Positions 7,432 to 13,996 of a stretch of 64,000 nt of DNA are shown piece after piece. The translations under genes were made by a program, and so were the position numbers. The DNA is from Lolliginicoccus lacisalsi (lineage in GTDB: Bacteria; Actinomycetota; Actinomycetes; Mycobacteriales; Mycobacteriaceae), in the NCBI RefSeq assembly GCF_014841105.1, contig NZ_JACYWE010000009.1, positions 62,001 through 126,000 on the forward strand, read 5' to 3'. Position 1 is the first letter of the stretch. Each line of letters begins with the position of its first letter. The notes beneath the pieces are model-generated. The model had not been told where the DNA came from, searched no databases, and saw nothing but the letters and a program-made list of their open reading frames with translations.

Positions 7432-9042
7432 ATGACGCGACAGCGGGAGCGGAGGTGGCGCGTGCGCGTGGATCCGGTTGCGGAGCGCTGGTTGCTGTCC
7501 GGGCCCGAGCGCGGCAATCCGTGGACGCGGCTGCACGGGTGGACCCAGGGCAACGTGGTGGTGCCGCTCATCGATGGCCGCCGGTACTTCGAGCGGCTCG
7601 CGCGAGCGCTCGCGGCGACGCGGCGCGGGGACGTGGTGCTGTTCTCGGCATGGCGCGGCGACGCGGACCAGGTCTTGCTCGATGGTGGCCCGACGATCGG
7701 CGATGCGCTGGCTGGAGCGGCACGCCGCGGCGTGGTCGTGCGGGGGCTGATGTGGCGCTCGCACGTGGAGCCCCTGGGTTTCTCGGGGCCGCAGAACCGG
7801 GCGCTGGTGGAGCGGGTGAACGCGGCGGGCGGGGAAGTGGTGCTCGACCATCGGGTGCGGCCCTTTGGCAGCCATCACCAGAAGTTCGTGGTGGTCCGGT
7901 TCGCTCGCCCGGGAGTGGACGATGTGGCGTTCGTTGGTGGCATCGATCTTGCGCGCACGCGCCGGGACGACGGCCTGCATGGGGGTGATCCCCTGGTGCG
8001 GCGCGAGGATCTCGAGCCATGGCACGACGCCCAGCTCGAGGTTCGCGGCCCGGCGGTGGCAGATGTCGAGCTGGTCTTCCGGGAGCGCTGGGAGGACCCG
8101 TCGGCGCTGGAGGAACCTCCGTGGGTGGCGCTGAGCGATGAGCAGGAGCCCCAGCGCGACCGCGAGCCGAGCACGCTGCCCACGATGAGCGCGCCGCCGC
8201 CCCCGGTGGGATCGTGTGCCGTGCAGGTGCTGTGCACGTATCCGCGCCGGGTGCCGCCGTTCCCGTTCGCGCGGGACGGCGAGCGCTCCATCGCCCACGC
8301 CTACGCCAAGGCGCTGCGTCGAGCGCGCGCACTGGTGTACGTGGAGGAGCAGTACCTGTGGTCGCGTGATGTGGCAGAGGTATTTGCCTCCGCCCTGCGC
8401 CGCAATGCCCGGCTGCGCATGGTGATCGTGGTGCCGCGCCTGGTGTACGAGACCAGCCCGATGCGCTCGATCCCGGCGTTGCTCGGACATGGGGCCGCCC
8501 TGCGGGCGCTGTGCCGGGCCGCGCCCGATCGCGTGATCGTCGTTGACGTGGAGAACCATGATTCCGCGCCGGTATACGTCCATGCCAAGGTGTGCGTCGT
8601 CGACGACGTGTGGGCTTGCGTGGGCAGCGGCAACCTCAATCATCGCTCCTGGACCTACGACTCCGAGCTGACCGCGGCATTCGTCGATGCGACCCGGGAT
8701 CCGCGGACACCGATGGATGCTGCCGGGACCGGGGAGGGCGCGCGCATCGCCGCGCGTGACCTCAGGCTCGAGCTCGCCGTGGAGCACCTCGACCGAGACC
8801 CCCACGATGTGGCCGACCTGATCGATCCATTGCGGTTCTTCCAGGCGATCCGCCGCTCCGCGCACCGCCTCGAGCAATGGCACCACGACGGCGAGCATGG
8901 TCCCCGGCCGCCCGGGCGCCTGCGGCCGCACAAGGCCGCATCCCTATCGCCCTGGCAGGCCGCGATCGCAGCGCCTCTCTACGAGGCCATGATCGACCCC
9001 GACGGCCGCAGCTGGCGGATGCGCGCGGCTCGGACGTTCTAG
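7432..9042 (+). CDS. Phospholipase D / cardiolipin-synthase-like enzyme
   Basis: This 536-aa protein has two HKD-type catalytic half-sites: HHQK (148-151), with FVGGIDLAR just after, and the complete VHAKVCVVDD...GSGNLNHRSW in the second half. Such enzymes transfer or hydrolyse phosphatidyl groups through a phospho-histidine. Between the halves is a proline-rich linker (about 245-275). The first half-site lacks the aspartate at the usual HxKx4D distance and has a longer loop with GVDD. There is no membrane segment or clear signal peptide, so it may act on the inner leaflet. The start ATG 7432 sits 5 nt behind TAGCGT. The 3' end overlaps the convergent gene by 4 bp. Confidence 0.85.
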   Translation: MTRQRERRWRVRVDPVAERWLLSGPERGNPWTRLHGWTQGNVVVPLIDGRRYFERLARALAATRRGDVVLFSAWRGDADQVLLDGGPTIGDALAGAARRGVVVRGLMWRSHVEPLGFSGPQNRALVERVNAAGGEVVLDHRVRPFGSHHQKFVVVRFARPGVDDVAFVGGIDLARTRRDDGLHGGDPLVRREDLEPWHDAQLEVRGPAVADVELVFRERWEDPSALEEPPWVALSDEQEPQRDREPSTLPTMSAPPPPVGSCAVQVLCTYPRRVPPFPFARDGERSIAHAYAKALRRARALVYVEEQYLWSRDVAEVFASALRRNARLRMVIVVPRLVYETSPMRSIPALLGHGAALRALCRAAPDRVIVVDVENHDSAPVYVHAKVCVVDDVWACVGSGNLNHRSWTYDSELTAAFVDATRDPRTPMDAAGTGEGARIAARDLRLELAVEHLDRDPHDVADLIDPLRFFQAIRRSAHRLEQWHHDGEHGPRPPGRLRPHKAASLSPWQAAIAAPLYEAMIDPDGRSWRMRAARTF

Positions 9043-10094
9043 CGGCGGGCCATCCTGAGGCGATAGTAGGCACCCCGGCCAAGCCTGCCGAGGTTCCTGC
9101 GGGTGATGCGCCGCGCGGTGAGGGCACTCATGGCGTGCTCGGCAATGATCCGGGTATCCAGGGGCCCGGGCGAGGCCCAGGCGGCGTCCTCGCGCGGCAT
9201 CGGATCGAGAAAGAGCTTGCCATCGGCCCGGCGAAGGAAGGTCCGGGCGATCCACTCGTAGTCGTCGCGGTTGTCCTCGATGAGCTGCGCGCGCCGTGCG
9301 GGGGAGATCGTGGGGGCGTGGGTGGTGCCGACGGGGTTGTCCATGGCGTGGGTGATGAGCCTCTTGCGGACCCGCTGTGGCATCCGCGAGCGCTGGTAGG
9401 TGTCGATGAGGGCCATGGTCTGGTTATCGAGGGCGATGTTGGCCATTGGCGGCTGGATGAGCCTGGAGTCCGCGAGCTCGGGCTGATTGGCGGCGCGGAG
9501 GAAGTCGGCAACGATGTCTGGCTGGTTCTGTTGCCTCTCGAATGGCCGGACGATCAGCGCGGCGGTGCCGAACTGGTCGGCCCAGCGGCTGATGAGGTGG
9601 CGGTAGTCGGCGCGGGTGGAATTGCGTCGCTGGTGGAAATCGATGAAGGATTCGGCGCTGCTCTCCCAGGGCGGGCCTGGCAAGCGCTTCACCGATTCGC
9701 GGTAGGCGGATTCCCACCACTTGTCGTGGCGCCGCAGGTAGACGATGATTCGGGTGTCGAACGGGGCGAGCAGCTCACGGGCGAGGGCGGGGTCCTGCTC
9801 GTTGACGAACATCTCTGAGCTGATGATCACAGTCGCGGCGCGGCTGCGCCGGATCTCGTTGGCGAGCTTCTGCTGGAGCGCAGGGATGCGGGCGCGGATA
9901 GTAGGGGTCGAGCGCTTGGGCGCGCTGGTGAACCCGAGGGCGCTGCTCAGCAGGTAGTGCGCGTGGCCGACCCTGCCTGTGCGCGGGTAGAGGATGCCGT
10001 GCTCGCGGAGGGCGCGCGCGGACTGGCTGAGGGCTTGCTGGATCGCGGTCGTTCCGGTCTTGTCAGTGCCGATGTGCAGGTAGACGACCGTCAT
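9039..10094 (-). CDS. Sulfotransferase-like protein
   Basis: The 351-aa product begins YLHIGTDKTGTTAIQQAL (residues 5-22), which matches the PAPS 5'-phosphosulfate-binding loop (GxxKTGTT) of sulfotransferases. A later RIIVYLRRHDKWWESAYRES (about 134-153) resembles the 3'-phosphate-binding segment. Such enzymes move sulfate from PAPS to a sugar, lipid or protein acceptor. It lies beside a Wzm/Wzt exporter and three glycosyltransferases, so sulfation of a surface glycan is a reasonable inference. The start codon abuts a perfect palindrome enclosing TATAAAG (10095-10113). The overall family assignment is by motif only. Confidence 0.72.
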   Translation of the reverse strand: MTVVYLHIGTDKTGTTAIQQALSQSARALREHGILYPRTGRVGHAHYLLSSALGFTSAPKRSTPTIRARIPALQQKLANEIRRSRAATVIISSEMFVNEQDPALARELLAPFDTRIIVYLRRHDKWWESAYRESVKRLPGPPWESSAESFIDFHQRRNSTRADYRHLISRWADQFGTAALIVRPFERQQNQPDIVADFLRAANQPELADSRLIQPPMANIALDNQTMALIDTYQRSRMPQRVRKRLITHAMDNPVGTTHAPTISPARRAQLIEDNRDDYEWIARTFLRRADGKLFLDPMPREDAAWASPGPLDTRIIAEHAMSALTARRITRRNLGRLGRGAYYRLRMARR

Positions 10095-10130: not shown

Positions 10131-10544
10131 TCATCCGGTGACCCGGAGCTGGGTGACCACCGTGCCCGCCTGGTGCAGCTCCACCTCGAACACGCCGGGC
10201 AGGTCAGCAACGAACTCGATGGACGCGGGCTGGCCGGGCACTGTGTCGGCGGTGAGGTCGTAGCCGTGGACGTGGAGCTCGTCAGCGGTGTCGGCAGTGA
10301 CGGTGAGCGCGACCGAGGTGCCGAGCGGGATCTCGACCTGGGAGGCGCCGTCGGTGCGTGTCCCGTCGGCGACGGTGAACTCGTAGCGCGTCGTCTCAGG
10401 GACTGTGGCATCGCCGGTGCTGGTGCTGGTATCCCCGGTCGTGCTGGTGGCGTCCTCGGTGCTGCCACAAGCGGCGCCACCGAGGGCCAGCATGGCCGTG
10501 GCGAGCGCAGCAGCGACGGAGGCGAGGCGGCGTGATGCGTGCAT
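10131..10544 (-). CDS. Exported cupredoxin-like lipoprotein
   Basis: This 137-aa protein starts with a basic segment and hydrophobic signal sequence ending GGAACGS, a lipobox-like site with Cys about 27, then a Thr/Ser-rich linker (about 28-48). The folded part, from YEFTVADG onwards, has the beta-sandwich pattern of EfeO-type cupredoxin domains, with VEIPLGTSVALTVTADTADELHVHGYDL and a C-terminal LPGVFEVELHQAGTVV. Two histidines in HVHGYD and one in ELH could bind metal, but the blue-copper Cys is missing. A role in metal handling is a guess. The next gene on the same strand, the sulfotransferase-like one, starts 36 bp further on. Confidence 0.72.
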   Translation of the reverse strand: MHASRRLASVAAALATAMLALGGAACGSTEDATSTTGDTSTSTGDATVPETTRYEFTVADGTRTDGASQVEIPLGTSVALTVTADTADELHVHGYDLTADTVPGQPASIEFVADLPGVFEVELHQAGTVVTQLRVTG

Positions 10545-10700
10545 GGATGCTCCCGGGGTCGAGTGCCGCCTGAGCCCGCGGGCAGGGCCCGGTGGCATGG
10601 CGTGCTGGTGGTTCCTCCCGGCAGCCTAGGTGGTGAGCGAACGCGGTTCCCGCCGAATCGTGGAGATGCGCGCGTTCTTTCCGGCGATCGAGCGGTGGCG

Positions 10701-11693
10701 CTAGCGCGCGAGCCCCATGCTGGACTGGCGCCATTCCCCGATGATGTTGCGGATGATGACCTCCTGCCCCGGCCCGGTGAGGCCCGCGCTGCGGAGCCGG
10801 CGCGTGGCCAGGGCGAGCCGGTCCGCTGTCTCGTTGAGCTCATGGCCAGCGTGGCCCTTGACCCACTGGATGTCGATCTGCCGTCCCTGCCGCTTGGCGT
10901 TGATGCGATCGACGAGCGAGCGGGCGCGATCCGGCGTGGTGCTGGGGTTGTTGATAGCCGCCACCGCGGGCTTGCTGTCACTGAGGATGCGCAGCGGACG
11001 CCGCCCCTGGCGGGAAGCGATCGCGAGCTCGATCGCGGTCAGCTCCGCGAGGAAGACATCGGAAACGCTGGGCAGGTACTTGGTGACGTGCCTGCCCTCG
11101 GCGTCCATCACAGCGATGCCCGCGCCGGGCCGCCCGCGACGCAGGGAGGCATCCGTGCACACGATCAGTGGCGCCCGTTGCAGCTCATGACGCTGGGCGA
11201 GCGTTGCCTGCCGAGCGAGGAGCTGCTCCTCCGCGATCGCCGCTGCCCGGCTCAGCCTCGCCCGGGTCGAGCTGCGGGCGAACGCGCCGGAGACCTCGCA
11301 GCCGGGGAACGAGGCGCCAGCGCCATGCAGGAGCGAGAGCAGAAGCGGATCGTGGGCATGGACCGCGAGCGAACGGCCGGTCGAGCGCGCCACCCCATAG
11401 AGGTGCGCGAAGCAATCCAGCCCGGCGCGAGCCAGCGCGCGGGACACCGCGACATCCTGCGAGCGCGCCGGAATGGCCGCCCGCACCACGGTGGCCGAGG
11501 TCCACGTGCCATCGGTGACGCTGGCGACCGCCCAGGCCGAGTCGAGCGAATCGCCATCAACGAAGAAGGGGCCGCGAAACGTGCGAATGACCGCCGATAG
11601 TTGCGGGGCCGCGTCGAGCGCCACTCCGCGCGGCGCGTGCCCGGAGGCTCCACGCCGCAATACCTCGAGCCATGTGCTCACTGGTTCCCGCAT
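10701..11693 (-). CDS. RNase HI-domain protein with a long N-terminal half
   Basis: The C-terminal part (about residues 180-325) of this 330-aa protein is a ribonuclease HI domain: CTDASLRRG, LAELTAIELAI, ILSDSKPA and NETADRLAL supply the D-E-D-D metal ligands, and WVKGHAGHELN carries the conserved active-site loop. It should cut the RNA strand of RNA-DNA hybrids. The first 180 residues match no family I recognise, but FFVDGDSLDSAWAVASVTDG followed by an alanine-rich helix and SLAVHAHDPLLLSLL resembles a decayed second RNase H fold. I chose ATG 11693 because GGAAGGGTGGG lies just upstream; the frame stays open much further but runs antisense through wzm. Confidence 0.8.
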   Translation of the reverse strand: MREPVSTWLEVLRRGASGHAPRGVALDAAPQLSAVIRTFRGPFFVDGDSLDSAWAVASVTDGTWTSATVVRAAIPARSQDVAVSRALARAGLDCFAHLYGVARSTGRSLAVHAHDPLLLSLLHGAGASFPGCEVSGAFARSSTRARLSRAAAIAEEQLLARQATLAQRHELQRAPLIVCTDASLRRGRPGAGIAVMDAEGRHVTKYLPSVSDVFLAELTAIELAIASRQGRRPLRILSDSKPAVAAINNPSTTPDRARSLVDRINAKRQGRQIDIQWVKGHAGHELNETADRLALATRRLRSAGLTGPGQEVIIRNIIGEWRQSSMGLAR

Positions 11694-11718
11694 CGCGTAC
11701 CCACCCTTCCCGGACAGC

Positions 11719-11736
11719 CGGATCGCGGACGATCCG
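11719..11736. promoter_or_regulatory. Inverted repeat between the RNase H gene and wzm
   Basis: CGGATCG-CGGA-CGATCCG is a perfect 7-bp inverted repeat 26 bp upstream of the minus-strand RNase HI gene. It may be an operator; nothing in the sequence names a binding protein. Confidence 0.35.
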
Positions 11737-11845
11737 CCATGATATCCCACGCCCGCGCGCTCACCTGTCCAGCGATTGGATGATCGGTGAGCGCGGCCAC
11801 CCCGCGATGACCCTGTATGGAGCCACCGCCCGCGCCCCGGGTTGC

Positions 11846-11851
11846 TAGTGT
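11846..11851 (+). promoter_or_regulatory. Candidate -10 box for the wzm/wzt/glycosyltransferase operon
   Basis: TAGTGT lies 40 bp before the wzm start codon in the 198-bp divergent region. It fits the TANNNT pattern seen at several other starts in this window. wzm itself has a strong ribosome site (GGAGGGG). Confidence 0.4.
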
Positions 11852-11891
11852 GAGCGCCGACCCTGCTTCTCGATGCTCCCGGAGGGGATCC

Positions 11892-12794
11892 ATGCCCGCA
11901 CCGATCGCTGAGCAGGTCGCGCCTGGTCGGCTCGCGCGGGTGAACGCGCCGCAGCCGTTCCTGCTGGGTTTCGGCAGGTCGGCGCGCGAGGTGTGGCGCT
12001 ACCGGGAGCTGCTTGGAAACCTTGTCCGCAAGCAGGTCACGGTCAAGCACAAGAATTCGTTCCTTGGCTTCCTGTGGAGCTTGCAGATCCCGCTCGTGCA
12101 GCTTGCCGTCTACTGGCTCGTGGTGGGCTACTTCCTGCGGGCAGGAGCGATTCCGTACTTCGGGCTCTTCATCTTCTGCGGCCTCGCGGTGTGGGCGTTC
12201 TTTGCCGATATCCTGCAATCGACGACGAAGTCGATCGTGTCGAATTCCGCCCTCGTGAAGAAGGTGTACTTCCCGAGGGAGCTGTTCCCGCTGTCGACCA
12301 CCGGCGCGGCGATCGTCAACTTCGCCTACTACCTGGTGATCCTGCTCGGCGGGGTAGTGCTGGCGGGGATCCTCAGTGGCGTGTGGCCGGATCCGGCGCG
12401 AGTGGCACTGCCGGTCCTCGGTTTGCTCACGGTGATTGTCTTTGGTCTCGCGCTGGGGATGTTCCTCGCCGCGGTGAACGTCTACCTGCGCGATGTCCAG
12501 CACTTTGTCACCGTCATCATGATGCCGTGGTTCTGGCTCACGCCGATCATCTACGACATCAGCATGGTGGAGCGCGCGCTTCCTTCGTGGTTGTACCAGG
12601 TGTACCTATTGAATCCGATGGTGCCCGTGATCTATGCGTTCCGCTCGTTCTTCTGGCCGCAGGGCGTCGACTATGGCTTCGGTGACGGCCTGTATCCGCG
12701 ATTGCTGCTCGCGCTAGGAGCCTCGCTGGTGCTGCTATGGCTGTCGCAGCGGATCTTCGCCCGCTTGCAGGGCAATTTCGCGCAGGAGCTGTGA
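11892..12794 (+). CDS. wzm: ABC-2 type polysaccharide export permease (Wzm)
   Basis: This 300-aa integral membrane protein forms the channel of an ABC exporter for a lipid-linked glycan. It has the Wzm pattern: a short cytosolic N-terminus with an amphipathic segment (YRELLGNLVRKQVTVKHKNSFLG), then about six membrane helices, with WSLQIPLVQLAVYWLVVGYF and the conserved MPWFWLTPIIYDISMV near the fifth. GGAGGGG sits 7 nt before ATG 11892. The stop codon overlaps the start of wzt (TGATG), indicating translational coupling. It heads an operon of exporter plus bifunctional glycosyltransferase. Confidence 0.9.
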   Translation: MPAPIAEQVAPGRLARVNAPQPFLLGFGRSAREVWRYRELLGNLVRKQVTVKHKNSFLGFLWSLQIPLVQLAVYWLVVGYFLRAGAIPYFGLFIFCGLAVWAFFADILQSTTKSIVSNSALVKKVYFPRELFPLSTTGAAIVNFAYYLVILLGGVVLAGILSGVWPDPARVALPVLGLLTVIVFGLALGMFLAAVNVYLRDVQHFVTVIMMPWFWLTPIIYDISMVERALPSWLYQVYLLNPMVPVIYAFRSFFWPQGVDYGFGDGLYPRLLLALGASLVLLWLSQRIFARLQGNFAQEL

Positions 12795-13996
12795 TGGCCG
12801 ACGAAATCGTCATCCGAACGGTGGACCTGTCGAAGCAATTCTCCATCCGGAAGGACAAGTCGCTCAAGGAGCGCGTGCTCAAGCGCGGCCGCGGACGTGC
12901 CCATGCCGAGCAGTTCTGGGCATTGCGCGAGGTCAACCTCGAGATCGCTTCGGGCCACACGATTGGCCTGATCGGGCCCAATGGCTCGGGCAAGAGCACG
13001 TTGCTGCAAATGATCACGGGCATCATCACGCCCACCGCGGGGTATGTGGAGCGCACCGGCCGAGTTGCTGCGCTGCTGAACCTCGGCGCTGGCTTCCATC
13101 CTGATCTCACGGGACGCGAGAATGTGTATCTGAACGCTTCCATCCTGGGGCTGAGCCGCAAGGAGATCGATCGGCATTTCGACGCGATCGTGGAGTTCTC
13201 CGAGATCCAGAAGTTCATCGATACCCCGGTGAAGTTCTATTCCTCCGGGATGTATGTGCGGCTCGCGTTCGCCGTAGCTGTTCATGTCGATCCCGATATC
13301 CTCATCATCGACGAAGTCCTGTCGGTCGGCGATGAGGCATTCCAGCGCAAGTGCCGGGAGCGCATCGAGCAGTTCCAGCAGCAGGGCAAGACGATCGTGC
13401 TGGTCACTCATTCGCTCGAGCAGGTGCAGAAGTGGTGCGACCGCGCGATCCTGCTGGTCAAGGGGGACGTGGTCGCGCAGGGCGACCCCAAGGATGTGGT
13501 GGCGCGCTTCCGCGAGATGCAAGGCCCGCCCACCGACTCTGCTCCCGCGCGACAACGCACCGATGTGTCGATCGCTGCCGCTCGGGCCCTGGATCCCGAT
13601 GGCGTCGCGGCGTCGACGTTCGCGAGCGGATCCCCGGTCTCCCTCGACCTAGGCATTGCCAGCGATGATGCGCTCACCGGCTGGGCCATGCGGATCGAGC
13701 TGCGCAAGGCTGACGGCACTCTCGCCCATTCGATGACGACCTCGCAGCGGGGCATCGAGCTGCCAGCCCTGGTGGGTCGTGCGACCGTGCGGATCGATTT
13801 CCCCGCCCTGCCGCTGGCTGCCGGGAACTATCACGCAGACATCGCGGTGCTGGCGAGCACGGGGCATGTGCTGCACGATCGCAAGCAGGCAGTGCGATTC
13901 GCGATCGCCCGCGACTGCGGGGACGGAGGAGTGGTCGCGCTGGATCCCACCGTCCGCATGGCTGAGGACCTGGCGCCAGCGAGGACGGGGGAATGA
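12794..13996 (+). CDS. wzt: ABC exporter ATPase with C-terminal glycan-binding domain (Wzt)
   Basis: Residues 1 to about 240 of this 400-aa protein form an ABC ATPase: GPNGSGKST Walker A (about 64-72), the degenerate signature YSSGMYVRLAFA, Walker B ILIIDEVLSVGD and H-loop THSLEQV. It powers the Wzm channel. Residues about 255-390 form a beta-rich domain with SPVSLDLGIASDDALTGWAMRIEL and PLAAGNYHADIAVLA, resembling the Wzt-C carbohydrate-binding domain that recognises the finished non-reducing end of an O-polysaccharide. That suggests export of a glycan whose end carries a cap. It is coupled to wzm at its start and to the next glycosyltransferase at its end (ATGA overlap). Confidence 0.9.
   Translation: MADEIVIRTVDLSKQFSIRKDKSLKERVLKRGRGRAHAEQFWALREVNLEIASGHTIGLIGPNGSGKSTLLQMITGIITPTAGYVERTGRVAALLNLGAGFHPDLTGRENVYLNASILGLSRKEIDRHFDAIVEFSEIQKFIDTPVKFYSSGMYVRLAFAVAVHVDPDILIIDEVLSVGDEAFQRKCRERIEQFQQQGKTIVLVTHSLEQVQKWCDRAILLVKGDVVAQGDPKDVVARFREMQGPPTDSAPARQRTDVSIAAARALDPDGVAASTFASGSPVSLDLGIASDDALTGWAMRIELRKADGTLAHSMTTSQRGIELPALVGRATVRIDFPALPLAAGNYHADIAVLASTGHVLHDRKQAVRFAIARDCGDGGVVALDPTVRMAEDLAPARTGE

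Follow-up and report, generated by a model that had tools for sequence, protein, structure and literature searches.

The protein described here, a product of 330 amino acids from Lolliginicoccus lacisalsi, is, as judged from its sequence and predicted structure, a stand-alone bacterial tandem in which an apparently dead RNase H fold precedes a live-looking one, an order otherwise known from retroviral reverse transcriptases. Its gene lies in a stretch of 64,000 nucleotides, the whole of which is called the window. Sequence comparison places the tandem RNase H in a small actinobacterial family, and computation shows that this family is linked to a protein, X, that precedes type I restriction genes. 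The position of the relatives beside a DNA restriction system suggests that they may be an unrecognised helper of bacterial defence. The dead-plus-live RNase H tandems that we found in the literature come from retroviruses and retrotransposons. One that occurs by itself in bacteria is a small system for asking what a pseudo-RNase H domain does, and its association with X at restriction operons points to a component that annotation has missed in an old and widespread defence system. Literature searches, with subscription journals mostly outside their reach, returned no description of the tandem family or of its restriction link. The N-terminal domain and most of X have no counterpart in the family libraries consulted, and such proteins are therefore presumably annotated merely as ribonuclease H or hypothetical.

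The C-terminal half is readily recognised. Residues 176–295 match the Pfam family RNase_H (PF00075; E = 4.4e-13, 50.1 bits, cut-off 25.8), as do all 23 members of the tandem family searched, and RNase_H and RVT_3, itself of the RNase H type, are the sole Pfam families to pass their cut-offs in the 330-residue window protein. A first-pass annotation made from the DNA sequence had credited this half with all catalytic residues, and Asp181, Glu217, Asp239, His281 and Asp291 are indeed found in frame (Table 1). The first four are invariant in the 23 aligned members, and position 291 is Asp in 10 and His in 13. Their spacing is 36/22/42/10 residues, against 38/22/54/10 in the Escherichia coli enzyme, the deficit of 12 residues falling at the site of the E. 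coli basic protrusion; the predicted model likewise has no helix for the protrusion within the 42 residues from Asp239 to His281. Sequence and model thus indicate an RNase H1 domain with a complete catalytic set and without the usual basic substrate-binding handle. RNases HI lacking the protrusion may be inactive, as in Bacillus subtilis, or weak, as in two archaea (PMC1950709), so that activity of the C-terminal half is not certain. Both halves are under purifying selection: in three ortholog pairs with L. levis and L. suaedae, dN/dS is 0.20–0.23 for the N-terminal and 0.11–0.18 for the C-terminal domain. The tail of residues 1–31 is short or absent in the aligned Rhodococcus rows, L046 excepted. 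A scan of window positions 10300–12000 for promoters yielded no sigma-70 site; one terminator-like stem lies inside the gene.

Table 1. Features of the tandem RNase H gene and of neighbouring and linked genes; positions refer to the window unless a locus is named
Feature	Position	Strand	Basis or remark
Tandem RNase H gene, paralog A, 330 aa	10701..11693	−	ATG-to-TAG frame; orthologs L029 and L030 adjoin the same exporter genes
N-terminal tail, residues 1–31	11601..11693	−	29 of its residues outside the structure models
N-terminal RNase H-like domain, residues 32–172, apparently inactive	11178..11600	−	AlphaFold2, Foldseek, VIA-align
T38 codon, near first catalytic Asp place in beta1; non-acidic	11580..11582	−	Columns 38–39, 23 members; register inferred from topology
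D93 codon, alphaA, near place of E. coli RNase HI Glu48	11415..11417	−	Inferred from spacing to beta4 in the models
D115 codon, after beta4, near Asp70 place	11349..11351	−	Equivalence inferred
C-terminal RNase H1 domain and C-terminal helix (residues 308–329), without basic protrusion helix	10704..11177	−	Pfam; predicted model
D181, first catalytic Asp	11151..11153	−	Alignment of 23 members
E217, catalytic Glu	11043..11045	−	Alignment of 23 members
D239, catalytic Asp	10977..10979	−	Alignment of 23 members
H281, catalytic-loop His	10851..10853	−	Alignment of 23 members
D291, fourth carboxylate	10821..10823	−	Alignment of 23 members
ABC2_membrane and Wzt-type ABC genes	11817..13996	+	Divergent neighbours of the window gene, followed by glycosyltransferases
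Own-genome X	L161:8931-10946 (G000:C1)		X precedes type I restriction genes in many members of this taxonomic family; relatives L162–L190

The N-terminal domain is confidently predicted to adopt an RNase H-like fold. An AlphaFold2 model of residues 32–172, built from 22 aligned N-domains, has a pLDDT of 92.4 and a pTM of 0.86, and its elements run beta1-2-3, alphaA, beta4, alphaB, a short beta5 and a long alphaC, which is the RNase H order. The best PDB match found by Foldseek is a Sulfolobus RNase HI (E = 1.4e-3; none of 1026 matches reaches 1e-3 or below). In VIA-align the best 50 of 852 rows (Z ≥ 2) have Z scores of 7.4–8.4 and comprise RNases HI, HII and H3, retroviral RNase H, integrase, Argonaute, endonuclease V and Prp8; one of these 50 is titled just 'unknown function' (2qh9) and the others are RNase H-type by title or domain position, the stretches aligned in the Argonaute, Prp8 and reverse transcriptase chains being their RNase H-like domains. 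A VIA-align Z below 8 can reflect merely a common arrangement, and weight is therefore put on the uniform identity of the best rows and on the topology. Two BFVD matches at or below 1e-3 are a phage protein without a named function and a phage ribonuclease H. The fold proposed in the first-pass annotation is thus borne out by the predicted model and the structural matches, and the outcome that would have refuted it, an N-terminal fold unlike RNase H, did not arise. The strings that it had quoted, FFVDGDSLDSAWAVASVTDG and SLAVHAHDPLLLSLL, are present as residues 43–62 and 108–122, and its strand–helix–strand reading of them was right as to RNase H likeness but slightly off in register, since the first strand spans residues 32–45 and the FFVDGDSL string covers the end of that strand and strand 2.

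Pfam, NCBIfam and PHROG gave nothing above cut-off over the N-domain in the 23 members searched, and a PDB sequence search with its profile returned three matches, all weak and unrelated. A Pfam STAS_2 match to residues 84–126 (E = 0.026, 15.1 bits against a cut-off of 29.2) was rejected because the matched stretch is a helix–strand part of the RNase H-like model, and stray matches of single members at E = 0.006–0.08 (MeaB, CcmI, TetR_C_11, Circovir_ORF3 and others) were taken as chance. Nor do the two halves resemble each other in sequence: hhalign compared the N-domain with the C-domain profile at a probability of 0.5, and nine N-versus-C alignments within the same proteins stayed at shuffle level, except for one at Z = 3.0 whose N segment extended into the C-domain motif. 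An origin of the N-terminal half as an internal duplicate of the C-terminal half is accordingly without sequence support, and the kinship of the two rests on fold alone.

The catalytic places of the N-domain were located by topology and spacing, not by residue-level structural alignment, and on that footing the first of them holds no Asp or Glu in 21 of 22 readable rows. The letters found there are mostly T or I, then R or F; L042 has D, and L050, which was retained in the alignment though its N-domain failed the profile, has a gap. The place of D93 is D in 20 of the 23 rows, E in two and N in one, and that of D115 is D in 15, Q in four, E in two, N in one and S in one. Paralog C of the same genome, which stands outside the 23-member alignment, has N at the D93 place. 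Since the first acid is missing from nearly all readable relatives, the N-domain is most likely catalytically dead, at least the first catalytic acid having probably been lost, and the earlier wording of a 'dead-plus-live' protein is a fair description.

The genome of L. lacisalsi encodes five RNase_H domains. One belongs to a separate, canonical-looking RnhA (L001), and another (L005) appears by eye to be fused to a phosphatase-like domain, in a manner resembling the MSMEG_4305-type fusion; the remaining three are the window gene (paralog A) and paralogs B (L003) and C (L004), whose N-domains align with one another at Z = 17.7–35.9 over shuffles. The nearest named genomes are those of L. levis and L. 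suaedae. In the window's taxonomic family the N-domain was detected in 33 of 401 genomes and eight of 31 genera, at 40 places. Two scans of the collection gave 62 loci, 40 with the C-domain profile alone and 22 with both domains in one frame, 21 of the latter having themselves contributed to the profile alignments (the exception is L049, at 1.5e-8). These 22 loci come from Lolliginicoccus, Hoyosella, Rhodococcus/Prescottella, a Propionibacterium, a Bifidobacteriaceae assembly and one viral contig. Weak N-domain matches in three of 305 genomes (own genome excluded), which might have indicated a phylum-wide spread, were counted as spurious because none had a C-domain in the same frame, and a match in L028 was likewise judged spurious from reading its frame. 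Searches with L041 found no match to its N-domain in 72,556 plasmid records, and nine of 50,697 phage records matched, every one outside the N-domain. On the viral contig (L088:4716-5525, 7482-9463) a full tandem RNase H lies near genes for a T4-type RNA ligase and a PNKP-like phosphatase, a set that looks like RNA repair.

Charge bears on what the dead half might do. Among 22 N-domains and 21 C-domains (the L047 row being trimmed), the C-domain is net positive in all 21 relatives, and the N-domain is net negative in 15 of 22, down to −8, against a net charge of +4 and a pI of 10.4 in the window copy. The prevailing acidity argues against a general nucleic-acid-binding role of the N-domain, but not for the window copy taken alone. 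It has earlier been supposed that the N-terminal half could bind RNA/DNA hybrids without cutting them, and one may extend this to a dead fold that binds hybrids in place of the missing protrusion while the live half clears R-loops, in the manner of the dsRHbd/HBD. Such a role would suit the protrusion-less C-domain and the basic window copy, and the dsRHbd has been proposed to compensate for a missing protrusion in B. halodurans and B. clausii (PMC1950709). It sits badly with the acidic majority of relatives, and Pfam shows neither the HBD nor any other nucleic-acid-binding family in the N-domain; PF01693, the HBD family, gave no match at E ≤ 1 in the window protein and none at ≤ 0.1 in the 23 members. 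Moreover, RnhA and L005 are already present, so that ordinary RNase H duty seems to be covered in this genome. The supposed hybrid binding thus goes unsupported, and we regard this role as rather unlikely.

The genomic setting of the relatives offers a different lead. X is a protein of about 700 amino acids with a helix–turn–helix part and a methyltransferase-like part, the methyltransferase motifs of which appear by eye to have decayed. Three X proteins (L037, L031 and L161) have no Pfam match at the limits used (E ≤ 0.001 for the own-genome copy, L161); among 18 X proteins compared with Pfam, N6_Mtase is matched by six (best 1.5e-6) and HTH_17 by two (best 0.0016). Against PDB sequences the X profile found at best weak matches to unrelated proteins (lowest E = 0.085), with type I M proteins appearing twice, at 0.43 and 0.74, and PADLOC gave no match for the tandem RNase H or for X among the copies tested, which in the case of X include two relatives of the own-genome copy. 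In 10 of the 22 two-domain loci X lies upstream of the tandem RNase H gene and divergent from it, and in Rhodococcus zopfii X is followed by hsdM and hsdS.

The wider sample of 401 genomes bears out this linkage. X is matched in 69 of them, in 25 at more than 300 bits, and the tandem RNase H is divergently adjacent in 23 of these 25. The 23 cases span seven genera (g1, g6, g10, g21, g23, g25 and g27), with 144–1418 bases between the two matches, 144–263 in 20 of the 23 and about 500 in the own genome and L. suaedae. In G524 and G066, the two exceptions, X and hsdM are present with no N-domain nearby. Where X is matched at 105–218 bits, the N-domain lies within 5 kb in none of 18 genomes, from which it follows that X does not need the RNase H; these adjacency counts cover the 25 strong and 18 intermediate matches, 26 further genomes having only weaker ones. 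Conversely, 23 of the 40 N-domain places adjoin X and 17 do not. Among the strong-X regions that were fetched, hsdM, the next in the gene set, is present in 14 of 14 and hsdS in 13 of 14; hsdR was confirmed in all three loci tested. The sixteen fetched regions with weaker X (15 of the 18, and G704) carry hsdM without exception and lack the RNase H. The own-genome locus runs hsdR, hsdS, hsdM, an amidase gene, a small predicted frame, X and then the divergent paralog C. Several loci have features of their own. In G541 (L167:10052-18485), the one region searched for cas genes, a run of X, hsdM, hsdS and tandem RNase H adjoins Cas7g, Cas56g, Cas3g, Cas8g, Cas1 and Cas2 in a defence island; in G025, counted among the 23, the tandem RNase H gene (L168:3457-4233) is broken into two frames next to an X that looks intact; and in L. 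suaedae a transposase gene (HTH_38 and rve; L031:1330-2454, the same as L173:8045-9169) lies directly beside X.

Pairwise distances were compared over 19 loci, six of the 25 having been dropped. Those of the tandem RNase H track those of X with r = 0.93, against 0.76 for RNase H and HsdM and 0.79 for X and HsdM, values that do not stand on an equal footing because HsdM is far more conserved (mean distance 0.165, compared with 0.53 for the tandem RNase H and 0.47 for X). Much of the correlation between RNase H and X could be explained by shared descent alone. The tie to X and restriction might amount to shared regulation or to hitch-hiking at a stable chromosomal site, the protein being an ordinary extra RNase H1. 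That A, B and the Hoyosella copies have no adjoining X, that the gap to X widens to some 500 bases in two Lolliginicoccus genomes and that hsdM and X of the own genome have an amidase gene between them would all fit such an account. The recurrence of one divergent arrangement in 23 of 25 genomes from seven genera, and the closeness with which the distances follow those of X, speak against it, and we think it improbable.

The window copy itself lies outside this setting. Unlike paralog C it has no divergently adjacent X, and in L. levis, where A and B are present, X is not matched at all, so that X is not needed for the window copy. The exporter genes next to A are the same in L. levis and in L. 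suaedae. The description of its surroundings as a glycan cluster holds in that ABC2_membrane, Wzt-type ABC and glycosyltransferase genes adjoin; however, such a cluster is not the usual home of the family, given that X adjoins the nearest paralog, C, and 23 of the 40 N-domain places. We take these neighbours as the setting of the window copy and do not think that they are functional partners of the tandem RNase H. Immediately downstream, the frames at 9039-10094 and 10131-10598, both on the minus strand, have no Pfam match; by eye, the first begins like a sulfotransferase and the second like a lipoprotein. In a tree whose backbone is weak (56/96) and some of whose rows are very long, the Lolliginicoccus copies of A and C group together (100/99), separately from B and the copies of Hoyosella (97/98). 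The sequences therefore suggest that A and the restriction-linked C are related by duplication and that A settled next to a polysaccharide cluster, where selection keeps it. That A rather than C moved is inferred from the neighbour X that C has in common with Rhodococcus.

Taken together, the reading that we prefer, at about an even chance, is that the family consists of a restriction-linked live RNase H1 without its own handle, that the dead half mainly docks or positions, and that the window gene is a settled duplicate. The dead half may dock on X or on an HsdMS complex, or it may instead hold the live domain in a set geometry, which is what the connection domain does in reverse transcriptase. 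At the home locus the tandem RNase H would act with the restriction system or regulate it, for example by removing RNA from hybrids met by the restriction enzyme. A bolder version, which we put forward tentatively as the less probable, is that type I restriction-modification in Rhodococcus-like actinobacteria has an undescribed accessory made of two proteins, X and the tandem RNase H, in which an RNA/DNA-hybrid nuclease is steered by a pseudo-methyltransferase and a pseudo-RNase H and would gate or extend the restriction of invading nucleic acid, the window copy having escaped to a new job. Should it be true, the retroviral dual RNase H architecture would also have a bacterial counterpart free of reverse transcriptase. 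A residual metal-binding or catalytic role of the N-terminal fold, which the acidic letters at the D93 and D115 places (22 and 17 of 23) might recall, is very improbable in view of the non-acidic beta1 place in 21 of 22 readable rows, the Q at the D115 place in four of 23 and the N of paralog C at the D93 place.

The closest architectural parallel is retroviral. Dual RNase H domains with decay of one copy are described for retroviruses and for plant Tat elements (PMC10508981, PMC9040795, PMC3985635). By its sequence and model the window protein has the arrangement that defines the retroviral dual RNase H, a dead fold N-terminal to a live RNase H, just as the connection or tether of retroviral reverse transcriptase is a non-catalytic RNase H-like domain directly before a live RNase H1. 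The full-length model (301 residues; pLDDT 92.2) has a pTM of 0.73, the arrangement of its domains being uncertain. In 34 of the best 50 VIA-align rows, model residues 1 to 267–271 are paired with residues 323 to 554–558 of HIV-1 reverse transcriptase (Z = 15.9–16.5, rmsd 16.5–17.9); rows covering the C-domain alone reach Z = 17.0, which, with the high rmsd, means that the domain order but not the orientation is common to the two proteins and that the connection part adds little to Z. Unlike retroviral reverse transcriptase, the window protein is stand-alone and bacterial and has no reverse transcriptase or integrase part; its N-domain retains the C-terminal helix that the connection domain lacks (PMC3985635). 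The RNases HI of B. halodurans and Shewanella SIB1 likewise join an N-terminal accessory domain, the dsRHbd/HBD, to an RNase H1, and that of B. halodurans also lacks the basic protrusion (PMC1950709); here the accessory domain is a predicted RNase H-like fold of about 140 amino acids in place of an HBD. The mycobacterial RNase HI–CobC fusion MSMEG_4305 is another actinobacterial two-domain RNase H1, in which the order is opposite, RNase H being N-terminal and its partner a presumed CobC domain (PMC7466739). Paralog C and the X-linked relatives have their home at type I restriction-modification loci, with hsdM, hsdS and hsdR; the window copy does not lie in one.
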